Assembly: GCA_015075635.1 (NCBI GenBank)
Contig: JABTUA010000003.1
Coordinates: forward strand, 1,488,001 to 1,552,000
From: Polyangiaceae bacterium
GTDB lineage: Bacteria > Myxococcota_A > Polyangia > Polyangiales > Polyangiaceae
Direction of reading: 5' to 3'
DNA length: 64,000 nt
The notes under the pieces are model-generated. The model ran no database searches. It was given only the letters and a program-made list of their open reading frames with translations, and was not told where the DNA came from. Of the stretch, positions 1-6,547 are shown one piece after another. Both the position numbers and the translations under genes were made by a program. Numbering within the stretch: position 1 is the first letter of the stretch; each line of letters starts with the position of its first letter.

Positions 1-380
1 GGGCGCACGAACAACCCAGTGAAGAGCGACACGCGGGAGCTCTGGCCCTCGCGCCAAACCAGGCCTCGCCCGAGGCGCTTCGCCAGCGCCCCCTGTGGCG
101 GCAGGAGCCCCTCGACCGTGAGCCTGGGCACGCTGCCCCGCAGCAATCGAACCAAGCGCTCGGGCGGCTCGCGGAGCGTGACCCTGCCGAGGGTCTTGGC
201 GAGCTCCAGGCGCTGGCCGAGCTCGAGCTGGAAGCCCGCGCGGTTGCCTTCCAGGAACGGAGTGCAGGCCTGCGCCGCGCGCAGCGGGATGGAGCCGTCG
301 AGCGTGGGGCTCGCCCGGGTGAGCGTGAACAACCCGCCCAGCGTGTCGAGCACCTCGAAGCAGGGGCTAGCTGCAGCCAC
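1..380 (-). CDS. Unrecognised fourth gene of the MNIO cassette (3' part beyond the window)
   Basis: The minus strand is open from a GTG at 380-378 to the window edge, giving at least 126 residues that begin MAAASPCFEVLDTLGGLFT. The GTG lies inside the last codons of the TIGR04222 gene in another frame, a 14-base overlap, so translation is probably coupled. There is no Shine-Dalgarno sequence because the upstream bases encode the Gly-Cys tail. Composition is that of a normal soluble protein (mixed Leu/Arg/Glu, no membrane segment), with Cys at about residues 7 and 41. I do not recognise the family. Its position as the last member of a tightly overlapping cassette suggests it serves the same process as the MNIO enzyme and the Cys-tailed membrane protein. 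The next in-frame GTG is at codon 10 of this reading. Confidence 0.6.
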   Translation of the reverse strand, partial: MAAASPCFEVLDTLGGLFTLTRASPTLDGSIPLRAAQACTPFLEGNRAGFQLELGQRLELAKTLGRVTLREPPERLVRLLRGSVPRLTVEGLLPPQGALAKRLGRGLVWREGQSSRVSLFTGLFVR

Positions 381-1515
381 CGCCGCCGCCGCAGCCACCG
401 CCGCCGCCGCAACCGCCGCCGCCGCCGCAGCTGGACGACGAGCAGCTGGACGACGAGCAGCTCGACGAGCTGCCCGACGAAGAGAACGACGAGGCCACCC
501 ACTTGCCTGCGCCGGTCGTCCCAGTCGCGATGTCGCCCGGCGAGAGCAGGCGCTCGCCCAGGATGGCGGGCTGGAGCGCGGCGAAGACCGGCACCGCAGC
601 CAGCGCGGCCGCGCCGCCGACCGCAACCGCGAGGCCGACGTCGGCTGCCCCGTAGCGCCGGCCGCCGCTCACGTCCGCGCGCAGCGAGAGCGTCGCGTCA
701 TCGAGCCAGGACAGGTAAGGCGCCGCCAGCGTGCTCTTCTTGCGGCCGATCAGCGACAGGACGAAGCCGACCGCGAAGACCACCACCATGGCGACGAACA
801 GGTTGCCGAAGGGGCGATCGATCTCCATCAGCCAGCCGATGCGCAGAGCCGCCACCAGCACCAGGAAAGCGACCGGCACCAGCATCAGCAGCACGTACGC
901 GCCGATGCGACCTGCCGTGCGGATCAGGCCCGCGCGAGCCAGCACGTCCTGGAGCGCGCGTTCCTGCGAGGCGGCGACGGCCTCGGAGGTCTGACTCAGC
1001 GTGGAGGACGTGAGCTGGCTGCCGGGCGCGCCGAGCGCCCGCAAGAAGGCCTGCCCGAGCGGCGTGCTGGGCGCCGCAGCGGCGTTGACGACGTACACGG
1101 TCTGCGGCGTCCCGGTCGCGTCGGGGATCGGAGTACCGGTCGCGAGCCAGCCTTCACCCAGAGCCTGCGTCACCAAGAGGTTCGCAACACCCGGCACGCC
1201 GCGCCGGAGGTAAGCCACCGCGGCCAGCTCGTCGCCTTGCGGTACGAAGCCCTTGGCCAGGCCCCGCACCGCCGCCATCGGCTCGGCCGGCAGCGGCGCC
1301 TGCATGCGATACGGTGAGCCGGCGGCCTGCGCCCACATCACGGGCGACGTCCGCGGCGTGGCCAGCGGCGGCGCCGCGTCGAGCAACACGCGGGCGGCGA
1401 TGGCGCGCACGATCAGCGCGCCCGCGAAGGTCAGGAAGGCCAGGACCAGGTAGAAGTCCAGGAACGGTCCGCCCGGTGGCAAGTTGAACGGGAAGAAGTC
1501 GAGGAGATCTTGCAT
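367..1515 (-). CDS. TIGR04222-type membrane protein with Ser/Gly-Cys repeat tail (putative MNIO substrate)
   Basis: 382 residues. Hydrophobic segments lie at about 19-39, 205-228, 238-256 and 295-315, with a soluble loop of some 150 residues after the first. The C-terminus changes to pure low complexity: three Ser4-Cys units, then three Gly5-Cys units, then a final Ser. An integral membrane N-terminus with a repetitive Cys/Gly-rich tail is the hallmark of the TIGR04222 family, whose genes are known to occur beside DUF692 (MNIO) genes. The ATG at 1515 lies 3 bases after the nucleotidyltransferase stop. From the family of the neighbouring enzyme I infer that the regularly spaced cysteines are modified after translation and then displayed at the membrane. 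The chemistry and the purpose are unknown. Family call fairly sure; function inferred. Confidence 0.8.
   Translation of the reverse strand: MQDLLDFFPFNLPPGGPFLDFYLVLAFLTFAGALIVRAIAARVLLDAAPPLATPRTSPVMWAQAAGSPYRMQAPLPAEPMAAVRGLAKGFVPQGDELAAVAYLRRGVPGVANLLVTQALGEGWLATGTPIPDATGTPQTVYVVNAAAAPSTPLGQAFLRALGAPGSQLTSSTLSQTSEAVAASQERALQDVLARAGLIRTAGRIGAYVLLMLVPVAFLVLVAALRIGWLMEIDRPFGNLFVAMVVVFAVGFVLSLIGRKKSTLAAPYLSWLDDATLSLRADVSGGRRYGAADVGLAVAVGGAAALAAVPVFAALQPAILGERLLSPGDIATGTTGAGKWVASSFSSSGSSSSCSSSSCSSSSCGGGGGCGGGGGCGGGGGCS
370..471 (-). repeat. Ser4-Cys / Gly5-Cys coding repeat
   Basis: These bases encode the last 34 residues of the TIGR04222 protein. Six cysteines recur with a period of 5 then 6 residues, first in Ser4-Cys units, then in Gly5-Cys units. 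On the plus strand the Gly part appears as CCGCCGCCG runs broken by CAGCCAC. It is in-frame protein low complexity, not an intergenic repeat. Confidence 0.85.
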
Positions 1516-1518
1516 CGC

Positions 1519-2244
1519 CTAGCTCTCCATCCGATCGACCTCTTGGATCGCTCGGTCCAAGAGCTGTTGCAGGGCGTCGTGCGCCGCTTCGGGGTCCTTG
1601 CGCACGTTCGAGAGCGCCGAGGTGTCCACGCCGTAGACCTCGGCGGCCTTCTCGAGCAGCACCGGCAACGTGTCGCTCGCTGCCGGAGTCCGGCGCAGCC
1701 CGAGCAGGGCGTGGAGCGGACCACGGAGCTGTTTGACCTTGCGCTCGACGGCGCCCGCCAGCTGTGCGGGAGCGCCCAGGCCGTCCACCACGGCGCGGCG
1801 CAGTCGGATCTGCTCTTCTCGCATCTCCTGCTCGATGCGCAGGCGGCGGAACTGGTCCGAGATGGAGAGCCCTGCGAAGGGATCCTTGCCGGCGAGCACG
1901 ACGTGGCAGCTCTGGATGTCGTCGTAGAACAGCGGGAAGACGTCCGCTGCCCGCGGGATCTCTTCTGCCCCCAAGATCACCGCTTCGAAGCGGAACGCCG
2001 TGCGCGCGACGGTCAGCGTGTTGGCGATGGAGAGCAGCGCCTCGCGCTTCGGGTCCTTCAGCACCAGCACGAGATCGACGTCGCTCGTGCCTTCGCGCCA
2101 GCCGCCGCGCACCGCGCTGCCGAACACGAGGAGCGCCGCCAGGTTGTCGCCGAGCTGGGCGCCGAGCGTGGTCGCCAGCTCGCTCAGGCGCGCCCGCACC
2201 GGCTCCGGGAGCGCTTCGAGGTTCTTCGCAGGGGTCTCACTCAT
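1519..2244 (-). CDS. Small nucleotidyltransferase-fold protein of the MNIO cassette
   Basis: 241 residues. An N-terminal minimal nucleotidyltransferase motif is present: G42-S43 in FGSAVRGGW followed by D55 and D57 in SDVDLVLVL, the GS-x-DxD signature of the NTP_transf_2 / MNT group. Residues 60-140 continue as a small alpha/beta domain. The C-terminal half (about 140-241) is helical, rich in Arg/Glu/Leu, and resembles a substrate or partner-binding helical bundle. The ATG at 2244 overlaps the MNIO stop as ATGA and the stop sits 3 bases before the TIGR04222 start, so it is co-translated with both. Members of this fold transfer AMP or other NMP groups to proteins, RNA or small molecules. Whether this one adenylylates the Cys-tailed protein, the enzyme or something else cannot be told. 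No HEPN antitoxin partner is adjacent, which argues against a simple MNT/HEPN toxin pair. Confidence 0.75.
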   Translation of the reverse strand: MSETPAKNLEALPEPVRARLSELATTLGAQLGDNLAALLVFGSAVRGGWREGTSDVDLVLVLKDPKREALLSIANTLTVARTAFRFEAVILGAEEIPRAADVFPLFYDDIQSCHVVLAGKDPFAGLSISDQFRRLRIEQEMREEQIRLRRAVVDGLGAPAQLAGAVERKVKQLRGPLHALLGLRRTPAASDTLPVLLEKAAEVYGVDTSALSNVRKDPEAAHDALQQLLDRAIQEVDRMES

Positions 2245-3605
2245 GGTTGGGCTCGGGTCCTTTCGAGGGTTCGCACGCGGGCGCGGGAGCCGGGGCCTTT
2301 GAAGGCCCAGACTCGGCTGCCGTCGCCCAGCGTCTCGCGTCCCACGAACGGGGCGCGGCGGGGCTCGAGCAGCGAGGTCCTGTCGTCGCGGGTGAAGCGC
2401 GAGCGGAAGAGCAGGCAGTCGCGCCGCGCGTCGTCCGCGAGCGCCGGCACCGCGAGCGCGCGCTCCGCGATCTGCCAGGCGTCCGAGATCGCAGAGAGCC
2501 GCGGCAAACGAGGCGTACTCTCGACCACGGTGCGGGCGAGCGCCTCGAGCTCGGGCTTGCGCCGCGAGAGCGAGCTCAACAGGGGCAGCGCCTCGTCCAC
2601 GCGCTTGCGCTTCAGGATGGAGCGCGAGCGCGCGAGCGGCTCGGCGCCGAAAAGCGCCAACCCCTCGGCCGGCGGCTCGTCGAGGTCGGTCAGATATCGC
2701 GCGACGGCTGCTTCCATTTGCGCCAGCTGTGAGCGCGTCGCTTCGTCGACCGAGCCCGTGGGCTCCGGCTCGCCCGGCTCGCAGCGAGCATGCCCGACCG
2801 CGCGCTGCGCGCTCCGGCAGCGGGCGAGCTCGCGCTCGAGCTCGCCGAACTCCGGGAACAGCGCGTCGCGCTCGATCAGGATGGGCACCTGCCCGATCTC
2901 CGAGAGCACCTGGTCGAGCAGCTCGAAGACCGGCTCCGGAACCGCGTGCGCGTGGTCGTCGAAGTAGAAGCCGTGCTCGAGGACGCCTCCGGCGAGGTGG
3001 AGCATCCCGACCCGGTCCAGCGGGTAACGGCGGGCGAATGCCCAGGGATCCTCGCCGGAGTTGACGGCGTTGGCGTAGACGTTCCCGACGTCGAAGAGCA
3101 GAGGGCAGCCCGTGCGCCGGGCGATCTCCGTGTAGAAATCGCCTTCGTGCATCTCCTGATCGGGCCACTCGAACGACCACGCCACGTTCTCGAGCAGCAA
3201 GGGCAAGTCGGGGAGCAGCCTCCTGGCACGAGCCACGTTCCCGACCACGACGTCTAGCGCGGCCCGCGTGTGGGGCAGGGCGGTCAGGTGCCCGATCTCG
3301 CGGTCGGCGCTGCGCACGAAGGCGACGTGCTCGCTGACGAGCGGCGCGCCGAGCTCGCGCGCGAGGGCACCCAAGGCCCGGGCGCGCTCCGGGTCGATGC
3401 CCTCCGCGGAGCCGAGCGAGAGCTTCACGCCGTGCGGCACCACGGGCCAGAGCGCGGTCAGCGCCAGGGCCTCGCGCCGGGCGGCGGGCTGCACGAAGCA
3501 GGTTTCGGCGACCACCTCGACGAAGTCCACGACTCCGGGCGCGCGCAGCAAGTCCGCTGCGAGCTCGGGACGAAAGCCGAGCCCGACGCCACCTGACCCC
3601 AACAT
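2241..3605 (-). CDS. DUF692 / MNIO multinuclear iron oxygenase with C-terminal extension
   Basis: 454 residues. Residues 1-260 form the DUF692 TIM barrel. Expected metal-binding residues can be seen in order: H58 (VPHGV), H93 (SEHVAF), E139 (LLENV), D172 (FDVGN), H203 (LHLAGG), H218/H220 (DDHAHAV) and E245 (IERD). Known family members (MbnB, TglH, ChrH) use two or three irons to oxidise Cys or Asp residues of precursor peptides. Residues 260-454 are an added, mostly helical Arg-rich domain, which could replace the separate partner protein that usually presents the peptide. It is the first gene of the minus-strand cassette and overlaps the nucleotidyltransferase by 4 bases. A 19-bp inverted repeat lies just upstream of the ATG. 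Family assignment is firm. The substrate, inferred to be the TIGR04222 Cys tail, is not shown. Confidence 0.88.
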   Translation of the reverse strand: MLGSGGVGLGFRPELAADLLRAPGVVDFVEVVAETCFVQPAARREALALTALWPVVPHGVKLSLGSAEGIDPERARALGALARELGAPLVSEHVAFVRSADREIGHLTALPHTRAALDVVVGNVARARRLLPDLPLLLENVAWSFEWPDQEMHEGDFYTEIARRTGCPLLFDVGNVYANAVNSGEDPWAFARRYPLDRVGMLHLAGGVLEHGFYFDDHAHAVPEPVFELLDQVLSEIGQVPILIERDALFPEFGELERELARCRSAQRAVGHARCEPGEPEPTGSVDEATRSQLAQMEAAVARYLTDLDEPPAEGLALFGAEPLARSRSILKRKRVDEALPLLSSLSRRKPELEALARTVVESTPRLPRLSAISDAWQIAERALAVPALADDARRDCLLFRSRFTRDDRTSLLEPRRAPFVGRETLGDGSRVWAFKGPGSRARVRTLERTRAQP

Positions 3606-3629: not shown

Positions 3630-3746
3630 AGACGACGCTGCAACGAGCCTGTCCCGCGTGGGAACATTCCTCCTCCGTCGCGGGTTCTCGCGCTCGTGCG
3701 GCGGCTCTTGCTCGAGGCCCCGCTGCCCCATGCTCCCTTCACGGCG

Positions 3747-5204
3747 ATGCGACTGACGCAGAAGATCACCCTCTCCATCACCGGCGCCATCGTGCTGCTG
3801 ATGGCGGCGCACGCCTGGCTTCGCATCGAGCGCGAGGCGAGCTTGTTCGAGCGGGACATCCGCCACGACACGCGCATCTTGGCGGCGTCGGTCGCCCGCG
3901 TCGCCGCCAAGACCTGGCGGGTGGACGGAGAGGCCGAAGCCGTGCAGCTCGTGCAGGACGCCAACGAACGGGAGGCGCACGTCGGGATCCGCTGGGTGTG
4001 GCTGGACGCCCCGGCGGTCAGCCGGGACCAGGCCGCGCTCGGTCGCGACGAGCAAGCGGCCCTCGACGCCGGGCGCACGGTGACGATTCGAGGGCGACCG
4101 CTCGGTCACGCGGTGGATGCCATCTACAGCTATTCTCGGATCCCGGGGCCGCGCCCAGCGGCCGTCGAGGTTCGTGAGTCGCTGGACGAGGAGGTCGCTT
4201 ACGTGCGGCAGACCGCCTGGCGTGCCTCGATCGAGGCCGCGAGCCTGGTCCTCCTTTGCGGCGCGCTGGTGTTGGGGTTCGGCGCGGTCTTCGTGGGGCG
4301 GCCGGCGCAGAAGCTCGCCGCGCAGGCGCGTCGCATCGCGGACGGCGAGCTCTCCGCTCGCTCCGAGCTCGATCAGCGCGACGAGATGGGGGAGCTCGGC
4401 CGAGAGCTCGACCGGATGGCGGAGCGCCTCGCCGCCGCGCGCGACTTCGCGGACGAGCAGGTCCGCGCGCGAATCGCGGCGGTGGAGCAGCTGCAGCACG
4501 CCGAGCGGTTGACCACGGTGGGCAAGCTGGCGGCCGGCGTCGCGCACGAGATAGGCACTCCGCTCAACGTGATCACCGGTCACGCCCAGCTCATCACCGG
4601 CGATTTTCCGCCCGAGAGCGCCGCGCACAAGAGCGCGGGCATCATCGCGGCGCAGGCCCAGCGGGTCGCCGCCATCGTCCGACAGCTCCTCGACTTCGCG
4701 CGCCGCAGGGCCCCCAGCCGGGCGCAGCACGACCTGGTCGCGCTGGTGCGGCAGACCGCAGGTGTGCTCACCGCGCTGGCCAAGAAGCAGAGCGTCGAGA
4801 TCGAGCTCGCGCTGCCCGACGCGCTGCCGGCCCAGGTGGACGCCGTGCAGATCCAGCAGGTCTTGACCAACCTCGCCGTGAACGCCATCCACGCCATGCC
4901 GAACGGCGGGAAGCTCACGATCGGCGCGGAGCGCTGCGAGGCGGAACCCCCGCCGGGCCAGGACGGGGCCCGGGGAGAGCTCGCGCGGATCTCGGTGCGC
5001 GACCAAGGGACCGGGATCCCTGCGGAGGCACTCGAGCACATCTTCGAGCCCTTCTTCACGACCAAGGACGTCGGCGCGGGCACCGGCCTCGGGCTCTCGG
5101 TGGCCCACGGCATCGTGAAGGAGCACCAGGGCTGGATCAGCGTGGAGACCCGGCCCGGTGAGGGCAGCTGTTTCCAGGTATACCTGCCGCTGGAGGCAGC
5201 ATGA
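3747..5204 (+). CDS. Membrane sensor histidine kinase (NtrB/AtoS-like)
   Basis: 485 residues from the ATG at 3747. An upstream in-frame GTG at 3696 would add 17 residues, but the ATG directly precedes the first membrane segment (about residues 6-23). A periplasmic sensor of roughly 130 residues follows, then a second membrane segment near 160-180, HAMP, a HisKA H-box with H267 in VAHEIGTPLN, an N-box NLAVNAIHAM, and a catalytic ATPase domain with DQGTGIP and GTGLGLSVAHG. It is the usual layout for kinases paired with sigma54 activators. Its stop overlaps the start of the response regulator (ATGA at 5201-5204), so the pair is co-translated. The signal is unknown; the surrounding ion-transport and stress genes suggest ionic or envelope stress (inference). 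Confidence 0.9.
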   Translation: MRLTQKITLSITGAIVLLMAAHAWLRIEREASLFERDIRHDTRILAASVARVAAKTWRVDGEAEAVQLVQDANEREAHVGIRWVWLDAPAVSRDQAALGRDEQAALDAGRTVTIRGRPLGHAVDAIYSYSRIPGPRPAAVEVRESLDEEVAYVRQTAWRASIEAASLVLLCGALVLGFGAVFVGRPAQKLAAQARRIADGELSARSELDQRDEMGELGRELDRMAERLAAARDFADEQVRARIAAVEQLQHAERLTTVGKLAAGVAHEIGTPLNVITGHAQLITGDFPPESAAHKSAGIIAAQAQRVAAIVRQLLDFARRRAPSRAQHDLVALVRQTAGVLTALAKKQSVEIELALPDALPAQVDAVQIQQVLTNLAVNAIHAMPNGGKLTIGAERCEAEPPPGQDGARGELARISVRDQGTGIPAEALEHIFEPFFTTKDVGAGTGLGLSVAHGIVKEHQGWISVETRPGEGSCFQVYLPLEAA

Positions 5205-6547
5205 CGACCGCGCGCATCCTGATCGCCGACGACGACGCCAGCATGTGCTCCATGTTGAGCGCTCACCTGACCAAGCGAGGATTCGAAGTGGAGACGTTCA
5301 CTTCCGCGCAGGCCGCCTTCGACGCTCATCGCAGCCGAGACTTCGACGTCGTCGTCACGGATCTGAACATGGCCGGCATGGACGGGCTCGAGCTCTGCGA
5401 GCGCGTGGTCCAGAACTCTCCGCAGACGCCGGTGGTGTTGATCACGGCCTTCGGGAGCCTGGAGACCGCCATCGGGGCCATCCGGGCGGGGGCCTACGAC
5501 TTCGTCCCGAAGCCCTTCGAGATCGAGACCTTCCTGCTGGCCATCGAGCGCGCCGCGCGCCACAGAGAGCTCCAAGCCGAGGTCACCCGGCTACGCAGCG
5601 TCGTCGCCGGGGCGTCGCGCTTCGACGACATGCTCGGCGAGAGCGCGGCCATGCGCCGCGTCTTCGAGCTGATCGAGCGCGTCGCGGACTCCGACACCTC
5701 GGTGCTGGTGACGGGTGAGAGCGGCACCGGCAAGGAGCTGGTCGCTCGGGCGCTGCACCGCCGGAGCGCGCGCCGGGACGGTCCCTTCGTCCCCGTCAAC
5801 TGCGCGGCCGTGCCCGAAGCGTTGCTCGAGAGCGAGCTCTTCGGTCACACCCGCGGCGCCTTCACGGACGCCCGCACGGCCCGATCCGGGTTGTTCGTCG
5901 AGGCGTCGGGGGGAACGCTGTTCCTGGACGAGCTCGGCGAGATGCCGCTGGGGCTCCAGCCAAAGCTCCTGAGGGCGCTCGAGGAGCGTGTCGTGCGGCC
6001 GATCGGCGCGAGCGCCGAGGTCCCCTTCGACGTTAGGCTCGTGGCAGCGACCAACACCGACCTGGAGTCCGCCGTCGAGGAAGGACGCTTTCGCGCGGAC
6101 CTCTTCTATCGGATCAACGTGCTCCAGATCGATCTCCCGCCGCTCCGCCGCCGCGACAACGACACGCTGCTCTTGGCGCAACGTTTCGTGGAGCAGTGCG
6201 CGGAGCGCAGCGGGAAGCGCGTCACGGGGCTCTCGGCGCCGGCCGCGCAGAAGCTCCTGGCGTACGCCTGGCCCGGGAACGTCCGGGAGCTGAAGAACGC
6301 CATCGAGCGCGCGGTGACGCTGGCTAGGTACGCCGAGGTCGTGGTCGAGGACCTGCCGGAGAAGATTCAGGACTACCGGCGTTCCCGTAGCGATGGCGAC
6401 GAGCCCCTGCTTCCCATGGCGGAGGTGGAGCGCCGCCATGTCGGGCGCGTGCTCGAGGCGACGGGGGGTAACAAGGCCGAGGCGGCGCGGATCCTGGGCT
6501 TCGACCGCACCACGCTCTACCGCAAGCTCCAGCGCTACGACCTGTAG
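5201..6547 (+). CDS. NtrC-family sigma54-dependent response regulator
   Basis: 448 residues: receiver (phospho-acceptor D54 in VVTDLNM, acidic pocket D10-D12), an AAA+ sigma54-interaction domain from about residue 140 (Walker A GESGTGKE at 172-179, Walker B LFLDELGEM), and a C-terminal Fis-type HTH (NKAEAARILGFDRTTLYRKL). The sigma54-contacting loop reads GAFTDA instead of the usual GAFTGA, a variant seen in some natural activators. The upstream kinase is its likely phosphate donor. Four sigma54-type promoter matches within the next 6 kb make this the obvious local activator. Probable targets are the receiver protein, the P-type ATPase, the Usp protein and the small membrane protein (inference from promoter sequence). 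Confidence 0.92.
   Translation: MTTARILIADDDASMCSMLSAHLTKRGFEVETFTSAQAAFDAHRSRDFDVVVTDLNMAGMDGLELCERVVQNSPQTPVVLITAFGSLETAIGAIRAGAYDFVPKPFEIETFLLAIERAARHRELQAEVTRLRSVVAGASRFDDMLGESAAMRRVFELIERVADSDTSVLVTGESGTGKELVARALHRRSARRDGPFVPVNCAAVPEALLESELFGHTRGAFTDARTARSGLFVEASGGTLFLDELGEMPLGLQPKLLRALEERVVRPIGASAEVPFDVRLVAATNTDLESAVEEGRFRADLFYRINVLQIDLPPLRRRDNDTLLLAQRFVEQCAERSGKRVTGLSAPAAQKLLAYAWPGNVRELKNAIERAVTLARYAEVVVEDLPEKIQDYRRSRSDGDEPLLPMAEVERRHVGRVLEATGGNKAEAARILGFDRTTLYRKLQRYDL

Follow-up and report, generated by a model that had tools for sequence, protein, structure and literature searches.

The first 3,605 nucleotides (nt) of a 64,000-nt stretch of a Polyangiaceae genome (hereafter the window; G000:C3:1488001-1552000 of a 9.47-Mb genome) carry, on the minus strand, an operon that runs on beyond the left edge of the window. 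In order of transcription it encodes an MNIO (DUF692) oxygenase, a nucleotidyltransferase-fold (NTase-fold) protein, a TIGR04222 membrane protein with a Cys-rich tail, a protein referred to here as gene 4, and a TauD oxygenase (gene 5). The explanation that we prefer is an operon for a membrane-tethered metallophore resembling ribosomally synthesized and post-translationally modified peptides (RiPPs); taken whole, it has in our judgement an even chance of being right. Its parts differ in strength. That the TIGR04222 tail is the substrate of the MNIO appears quite likely, because Cys tails and a Cys-oxidizing maturase occur together and because no other part of the protein is as well conserved as the tail. 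That the product is a 5-thiooxazole, by analogy with characterized MNIO systems, is about as probable as the contrary, and binding of metal by the finished tail is proposed a little more tentatively. On this view the system is a membrane-tethered, bufferin-like tail that probably bears 5-thiooxazole. The features are as follows.

2241..3605, minus strand: MNIO (DUF692) oxygenase, 454 aa; catalytic TIM barrel at about residues 5-267; PF05114
2244..2780, minus strand: C-terminal extension of the MNIO, most likely a PME-like fused partner domain; last 179 residues, the construct modelled
1519..2244, minus strand: nucleotidyltransferase-fold protein, 241 aa; GS...SDVD plus Glu as third acid; conserved helical C-terminal domain
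367..1515, minus strand: TIGR04222 membrane protein, proposed precursor, 382 aa; four predicted transmembrane segments
370..471, minus strand: Ser4-Cys/Gly5-Cys tail, proposed modification sites; last 34 residues of the TIGR04222 protein
1..380, continuing outside the window to about G000:C3:1487112, minus strand: gene 4, DUF6065-like, dUTPase-like predicted fold, 422 aa; GTG start at 380
L009 8141-9115, wholly outside the window after gene 4, minus strand: gene 5, TauD/TfdA oxygenase, 324 aa; Fe/2-oxoglutarate type

An earlier note on this DNA had described four overlapping minus-strand genes. The MNIO, the NTase-fold protein, the TIGR04222 protein and a fourth gene are all borne out by family scores and coordinates. 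The MNIO gene overlaps the NTase gene by 4 nt and the TIGR04222 gene overlaps gene 4 by 14 nt, but the NTase and TIGR04222 genes are separated by 3 nt. The four genes also proved to belong to a larger unit. Gene 4 leaves the window at its left edge (it is complete at L009 9112-10380, reading on into the genome) and overlaps by 4 nt gene 5, which lies beyond that edge and is part of the conserved set.

The Cys tail and neighbouring maturases

The TIGR04222 protein matches its family with 54.6 bits (NCBIfam cut-off, 43) and ends in SSSSC-SSSSC-SSSSC-GGGGGC-GGGGGC-GGGGGC-S. The six Cys residues are spaced by 5, 5, 6, 6 and 6 residues, as evenly as the earlier note had said, and only 115 of 100,000 shuffles of the tail were equally even. 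All complete orthologues of the protein end in a Ser/Gly-rich tail with three to seven Cys, usually of the form SSSSC-GGGGGC-GGGGGC-GGGGGC. At least 15 of 17 orthologues retain the G5-C units, although identity over the whole protein is only 30-38%; the G5-C tail is thus its most conserved part. The codons of the tail are mixed synonymous ones, drawn from all four for Gly and both for Cys, and such free synonymous variation argues for selection on the peptide and not on a DNA repeat. Hydropathy and the positive-inside rule predict an outside N-terminus, a large domain inside and the C-terminal tail outside. In the topology published for TIGR04222 proteins the tail lies outside too, but the large domains are described as periplasmic (PMC12452194).

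In a sample of Myxococcota loci, with tail and maturase counts assembled by hand, a maturase was found nearby in 11 of 11 loci with a Cys-tailed TIGR04222 protein and in none of three tail-less loci (Fisher p = 0.0027, a value that overstates independence because the loci are related). A frame matched in genome G353 (L209) was spurious and was excluded from the counts. The neighbouring maturase was an MNIO each time, except once, when it was SbtM. At that locus (L179; G039:C28, 4070-6755) an NTase-fold protein, a Cys-tailed TIGR04222 protein and SbtM stand in a row with no MNIO, and the SbtM match reaches 474 bits against a cut-off of 350 (TIGR04082). NCBIfam names this family 'thio(seleno)oxazole modification radical SAM maturase'; SbtM in the place of the MNIO therefore points to thiooxazole chemistry, and the apparent exchange of the two enzymes on the same chassis predicts what the chemistry would be. 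A literature search on SbtM/SbtA returned only unrelated uses of the letters, and at the threshold used the window's genome has no SbtM. The other two genomes of its genus (L205 5340-9272; L206 1941-5754) each encode SbtM after a protein that ends in GGSSCGSSCGGGCGGGY and has no similarity to TIGR04222. At L175 (3480-3758, minus strand), a 93-aa protein, which has a single hydrophobic segment and the tail SSCGGCGGCGGCGGCG, is followed by an NTase and then an MNIO; it is possibly a minimal precursor.

The MNIO was used as a query against 379 genomes of the phylum and 84,980 species genomes. Full-length orthologues were about 43-57% identical, and the complete five-gene order was found in 13 distinct Myxococcota genomes, the window's included, among whose hosts are Minicystis rosea, Sorangium cellulosum, Paraliomyxa miuraensis and Labilithrix. 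Loci L056 and L059 end at contig ends, and shorter gene sets occur at L033, L034 and L035. Across the loci the genes mostly overlap or sit a few bases apart. Since the five-gene order recurs in 13 distinct genomes, with the other flanking genes common to close relatives only, the set is conserved beyond chance. The neighbourhoods thus do not show the loss of joint conservation in relatives that the earlier note had named as its refutation. The cassette is nevertheless accessory, both other genomes of the window's genus being without it. At L186-L188, the NTase, the Cys-tailed membrane protein and a distant gene 4 stand in a row with TauD absent; at L186 and L187 an MNIO is present in divergent orientation.

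The MNIO with its probable fused partner, and the proposed product

The MNIO matches PF05114 over residues 6-267 with 256.7 bits (gathering cut-off, 25; 2.8e-76). Residues H58, H93, E139, N140, D172, N175, H203, D216, H218 and E245 are invariant in 12 orthologues, and several of them align with 3bww, TglH and MbnB; they include the presumed ligands of the iron site. In a tree of MNIOs, the five-gene clade forms one side of a branch (97/98), with a sister group made up mostly of actinobacterial TIGR04222-linked MNIOs (95/86), and stands apart from the two other MNIOs of the window's genome. The latter (L043, G000 C1 at about 1.010 Mb; L044, C3 at about 1.637 Mb) each have a small Cys-bearing, secreted-looking protein encoded directly upstream.

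The extra C-terminal domain seen in the earlier note is present and, by its predicted fold, is an MNIO partner protein. The AlphaFold2 model of the last 179 residues has a mean predicted local distance difference test (pLDDT) score of 90.4. Among 1000 aligned chains, TglI (8hi7_A) came first with Z 8.0 over 150 residues and MbnC (7fc0_C) second with Z 4.2 over 135 residues, the next unrelated chain reaching 3.3; a Z of 8 alone is close to values reached by models that have no true relatives, and the weight lies in both partner proteins being ranked first and second. Plain Foldseek gave no match below E 0.37 and ranked MbnC only 50th; it was the second aligner that resolved the partner matches. 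In actinobacterial TIGR04222 loci a stand-alone partner gene directly follows the MNIO gene. Against a profile of these partners the extension scored 29.8, whereas shuffles and unrelated families reached no more than 19.6; the probability was only 41%, so the assignment leans on structure too. A Pfam scan of the extension gave no match and hence no DUF2063 signature. Taken together, the TglI/MbnC-like predicted fold and a profile match above all controls suggest that enzyme and partner are most likely fused in one chain.

The following order of events is proposed. The TIGR04222 protein would serve as both precursor and anchor, with four transmembrane segments, a cytoplasmic large domain and the tail outside as predicted. 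Prior to export of the tail, its Cys residues would be oxidized by the MNIO with its fused partner; 5-thiooxazoles, the product known from bufferins and captophorins, are the likeliest outcome. The finished tail may bind soft metal ions, of which copper is our best guess. The NTase-fold protein probably assists or modifies the TIGR04222 protein, and the dUTPase-fold protein and TauD may add clade-specific steps; for all three of these genes (2, 4 and 5) the role is a guess. The earlier note's proposal that the substrate is a membrane-protein tail is thus supported by comparison, through the co-occurrence of tail and maturase and the conservation of the tail, while the chemistry is a proposal. 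Most of what is known of RiPP enzymes concerns small secreted peptides. Should an MNIO act on a tail that belongs to an integral membrane protein, this chemistry would also build permanent parts of the cell envelope, and a fused enzyme with a simple repeat tail would make a convenient test case for MNIO substrate choice.

Bufferins and captophorins are 5-thiooxazole copper-binding RiPPs (PMC12452194, PMC12668002). They share with the present system an MNIO with a partner domain, repeated Cys before small residues and an extracytoplasmic product (predicted here), whereas here the precursor is a polytopic membrane protein instead of a small secreted peptide, and the partner is fused and lacks DUF2063. 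Captophorin MNIOs make 5-thiooxazoles and favour a small residue after Cys, and for FonBC, a 5-thiooxazole MNIO pair, only Gly or Ala was accepted at that position among the variants tested (PMC12668002). In our tail this residue is Gly or Ser.

Several points weigh against a plain thiooxazole metallophore. The residues that FonBC was shown to accept after Cys do not include Ser. The MNIO falls under the cut-off of every characterized NCBIfam equivalog (best BufB, 198.7 bits against 310; HvfB, 161.3 against 360), so its reaction cannot be read off from its family. The link to SbtM comes from one TIGR04222 locus and its chemistry from the family name only. The operon has no conserved copper gene as a neighbour, and the presence of extra enzymes hints at chemistry beyond simple thiooxazole formation. 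An MNIO below the BufB and HvfB cut-offs, with no DUF2063 partner and a polytopic precursor, also means that this is by definition not a bufferin system.

The tail may instead be the substrate for another product: an oxazolone-thioamide like that of methanobactin, a cross-link formed from Cys, or a thiooxazole to which TauD and the NTase have added hydroxyl or nucleotidyl groups. We regard this as a serious, though minority, possibility, given two unrelated iron oxygenases and an NTase with intact catalytic residues in the clade, and MNIO products that vary widely in the literature. However, the Actinomycetota TIGR04222 loci have an MNIO and its partner without the extra genes, which are therefore not required for the core step, and the replacement by SbtM again favours a thio(seleno)oxazole.

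With respect to known systems, the earlier note knew of no described product for this arrangement. The pairing of MNIO with TIGR04222 proteins, and Ser/Gly-rich periplasmic Cys tails as putative substrates, were in fact published by Antoine et al. in 2025 (PMC12452194), but the enlarged five-gene version appears undescribed. Their clusters resemble ours in that the MNIO adjoins a TIGR04222 protein whose Ser/Gly-rich Cys tail is predicted outside and proposed as substrate; they differ in that here the partner is fused to the MNIO, and NTase-fold, dUTPase-fold and TauD proteins are constant components. Neither nucleotidyltransferases nor Myxococcota are mentioned in the main text of their paper. 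In that text and in the literature searched we also did not find the partner fusion, the set of five genes, the replacement of MNIO by SbtM or the broader NTase pattern, all of which appear to be undescribed. The TglHI and MbnBC pairs have a partner of the fold predicted here, but as separate chains, and act on different substrates. SbtM systems (TIGR04082) also have Cys in Gly-rich repeats as likely target, and SbtM adjoins an NTase-TIGR04222 pair at L179, but SbtM is a radical SAM enzyme of a family unrelated to MNIO.

The nucleotidyltransferase-fold protein, gene 4 and TauD

The NTase-fold protein matches PF01909 with 29.9 bits (cut-off, 21). Within the five-gene clade D55 and E87 are invariant and D57 is kept in at least 90%, so the active site looks intact there and real nucleotidyl transfer may be possible. 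A search of the whole phylum found relatives in rearranged TIGR04222/MNIO loci (L038, L175, L177, L179, L182 and L186-L189) and in LemA/TPM operons (L181, L185 and L190), in which the TPM protein ends in Gly/Phe-rich, GGGGFGGGG-like repeats. The NTase fold is thus a general companion of Gly-tailed membrane proteins, which gives a first lead on NTase-fold proteins in that position. Outside the clade, most relatives lack the DxD motif, and those at L181, L185 and L190 are without the catalytic Asp. For this reason nucleotidyl transfer cannot be assumed, and the protein may be a partner or adaptor rather than a nucleotide-adding enzyme. The earlier note's view that a nucleotidyltransferase is built in thus holds for the fold, a constant companion, but not for the catalytic residues of most relatives. 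Close relatives at L172, L173 and L174 stand alone with altered sites (SGVDA, SNVDA, TGG) and no MNIO or TIGR04222 genes nearby.

A further explanation makes the NTase the main actor, adenylylating the Ser-rich tail or the TIGR04222 domain, with the tail Cys as metal or redox ligands. It draws on NTase relatives that adjoin TIGR04222 proteins even where MNIO and Cys tail are both missing (L178 and L183, the latter slightly below the family cut-off) and on the conserved SDxD and Glu of the five-gene clade. The loss of the catalytic Asp in most relatives that keep the linkage, and Cys tails that track the maturase and not the NTase, make it improbable.

For gene 4, a model of the Minicystis orthologue (pLDDT 86.6) had only dUTPases among its top 50 structural matches (Z 8.7-9.3), with the Epstein-Barr virus dUTPase 2bt1 aligned over 219 residues; the dUTPase catalytic motifs were compared by eye only. 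At the sequence level, a Pfam scan of 11 gene 4 members found no dUTPase family at E 0.1, and comparison of gene 4 with the PDB gave no useful match. Its weak similarity to DUF6065 (E=5e-4, below the Pfam cut-off) suggests that the DUF6065 family may share a dUTPase-like fold; a literature search for DUF6065 found no paper. Gene 5 matches PF02668 with 81.9 bits (cut-off, 27). Its H84, D86, H208, R218 and R222 are invariant, so that the HxD motif, the distal His and the Arg are kept, and it is only distantly similar to gamma-butyrobetaine and TmpA dioxygenases. No paper joining DUF692 and TauD was found in the literature searched.

A bolder proposal, rather unlikely to hold in full, would unite these proteins. 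An NTase-fold and TIGR04222 chassis would have its Cys tail turned into thiooxazoles by an MNIO or the unrelated SbtM, and in Polyangia a working NTase, the dUTPase-fold protein and TauD would add a modification that depends on a nucleotide; the result would be a metallophore bound to the membrane and of a new chemical kind.

Remaining alternatives and neighbouring genes

The tail might also stay unmodified and serve as a plain thiol ligand of metal, with the MNIO acting on a peptide encoded elsewhere. The two further MNIOs of this genome do have their own Cys-bearing precursor-like genes, and more than a quarter of TIGR04222 proteins are without C-proximal Cys (PMC12452194). On the other side, Cys tails co-occur with maturases of two unrelated kinds, and neither the operon nor the gaps flanking it contained another Cys-rich, precursor-like small open reading frame; we give this explanation little probability. 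That the tail is a drifting GC-rich triplet repeat with unrelated enzymes as neighbours is hardly credible: the tail DNA does resemble GGC-rich DNA at dozens of other sites in the genome, but distant genomes share the Cys spacing and the G5-C units while their Gly and Cys codons vary, which contradicts it.

Two neighbours were considered and left out of the unit. A sixth gene downstream of TauD (L009 7097-7987, minus strand), encoding a CmpB-like membrane protein, had no match in any relative. A histidine kinase and a sigma-54 response regulator are encoded divergently from the operon at 3696-6547 of the window (plus strand); the pair is not common to the other loci and so is not part of the unit.

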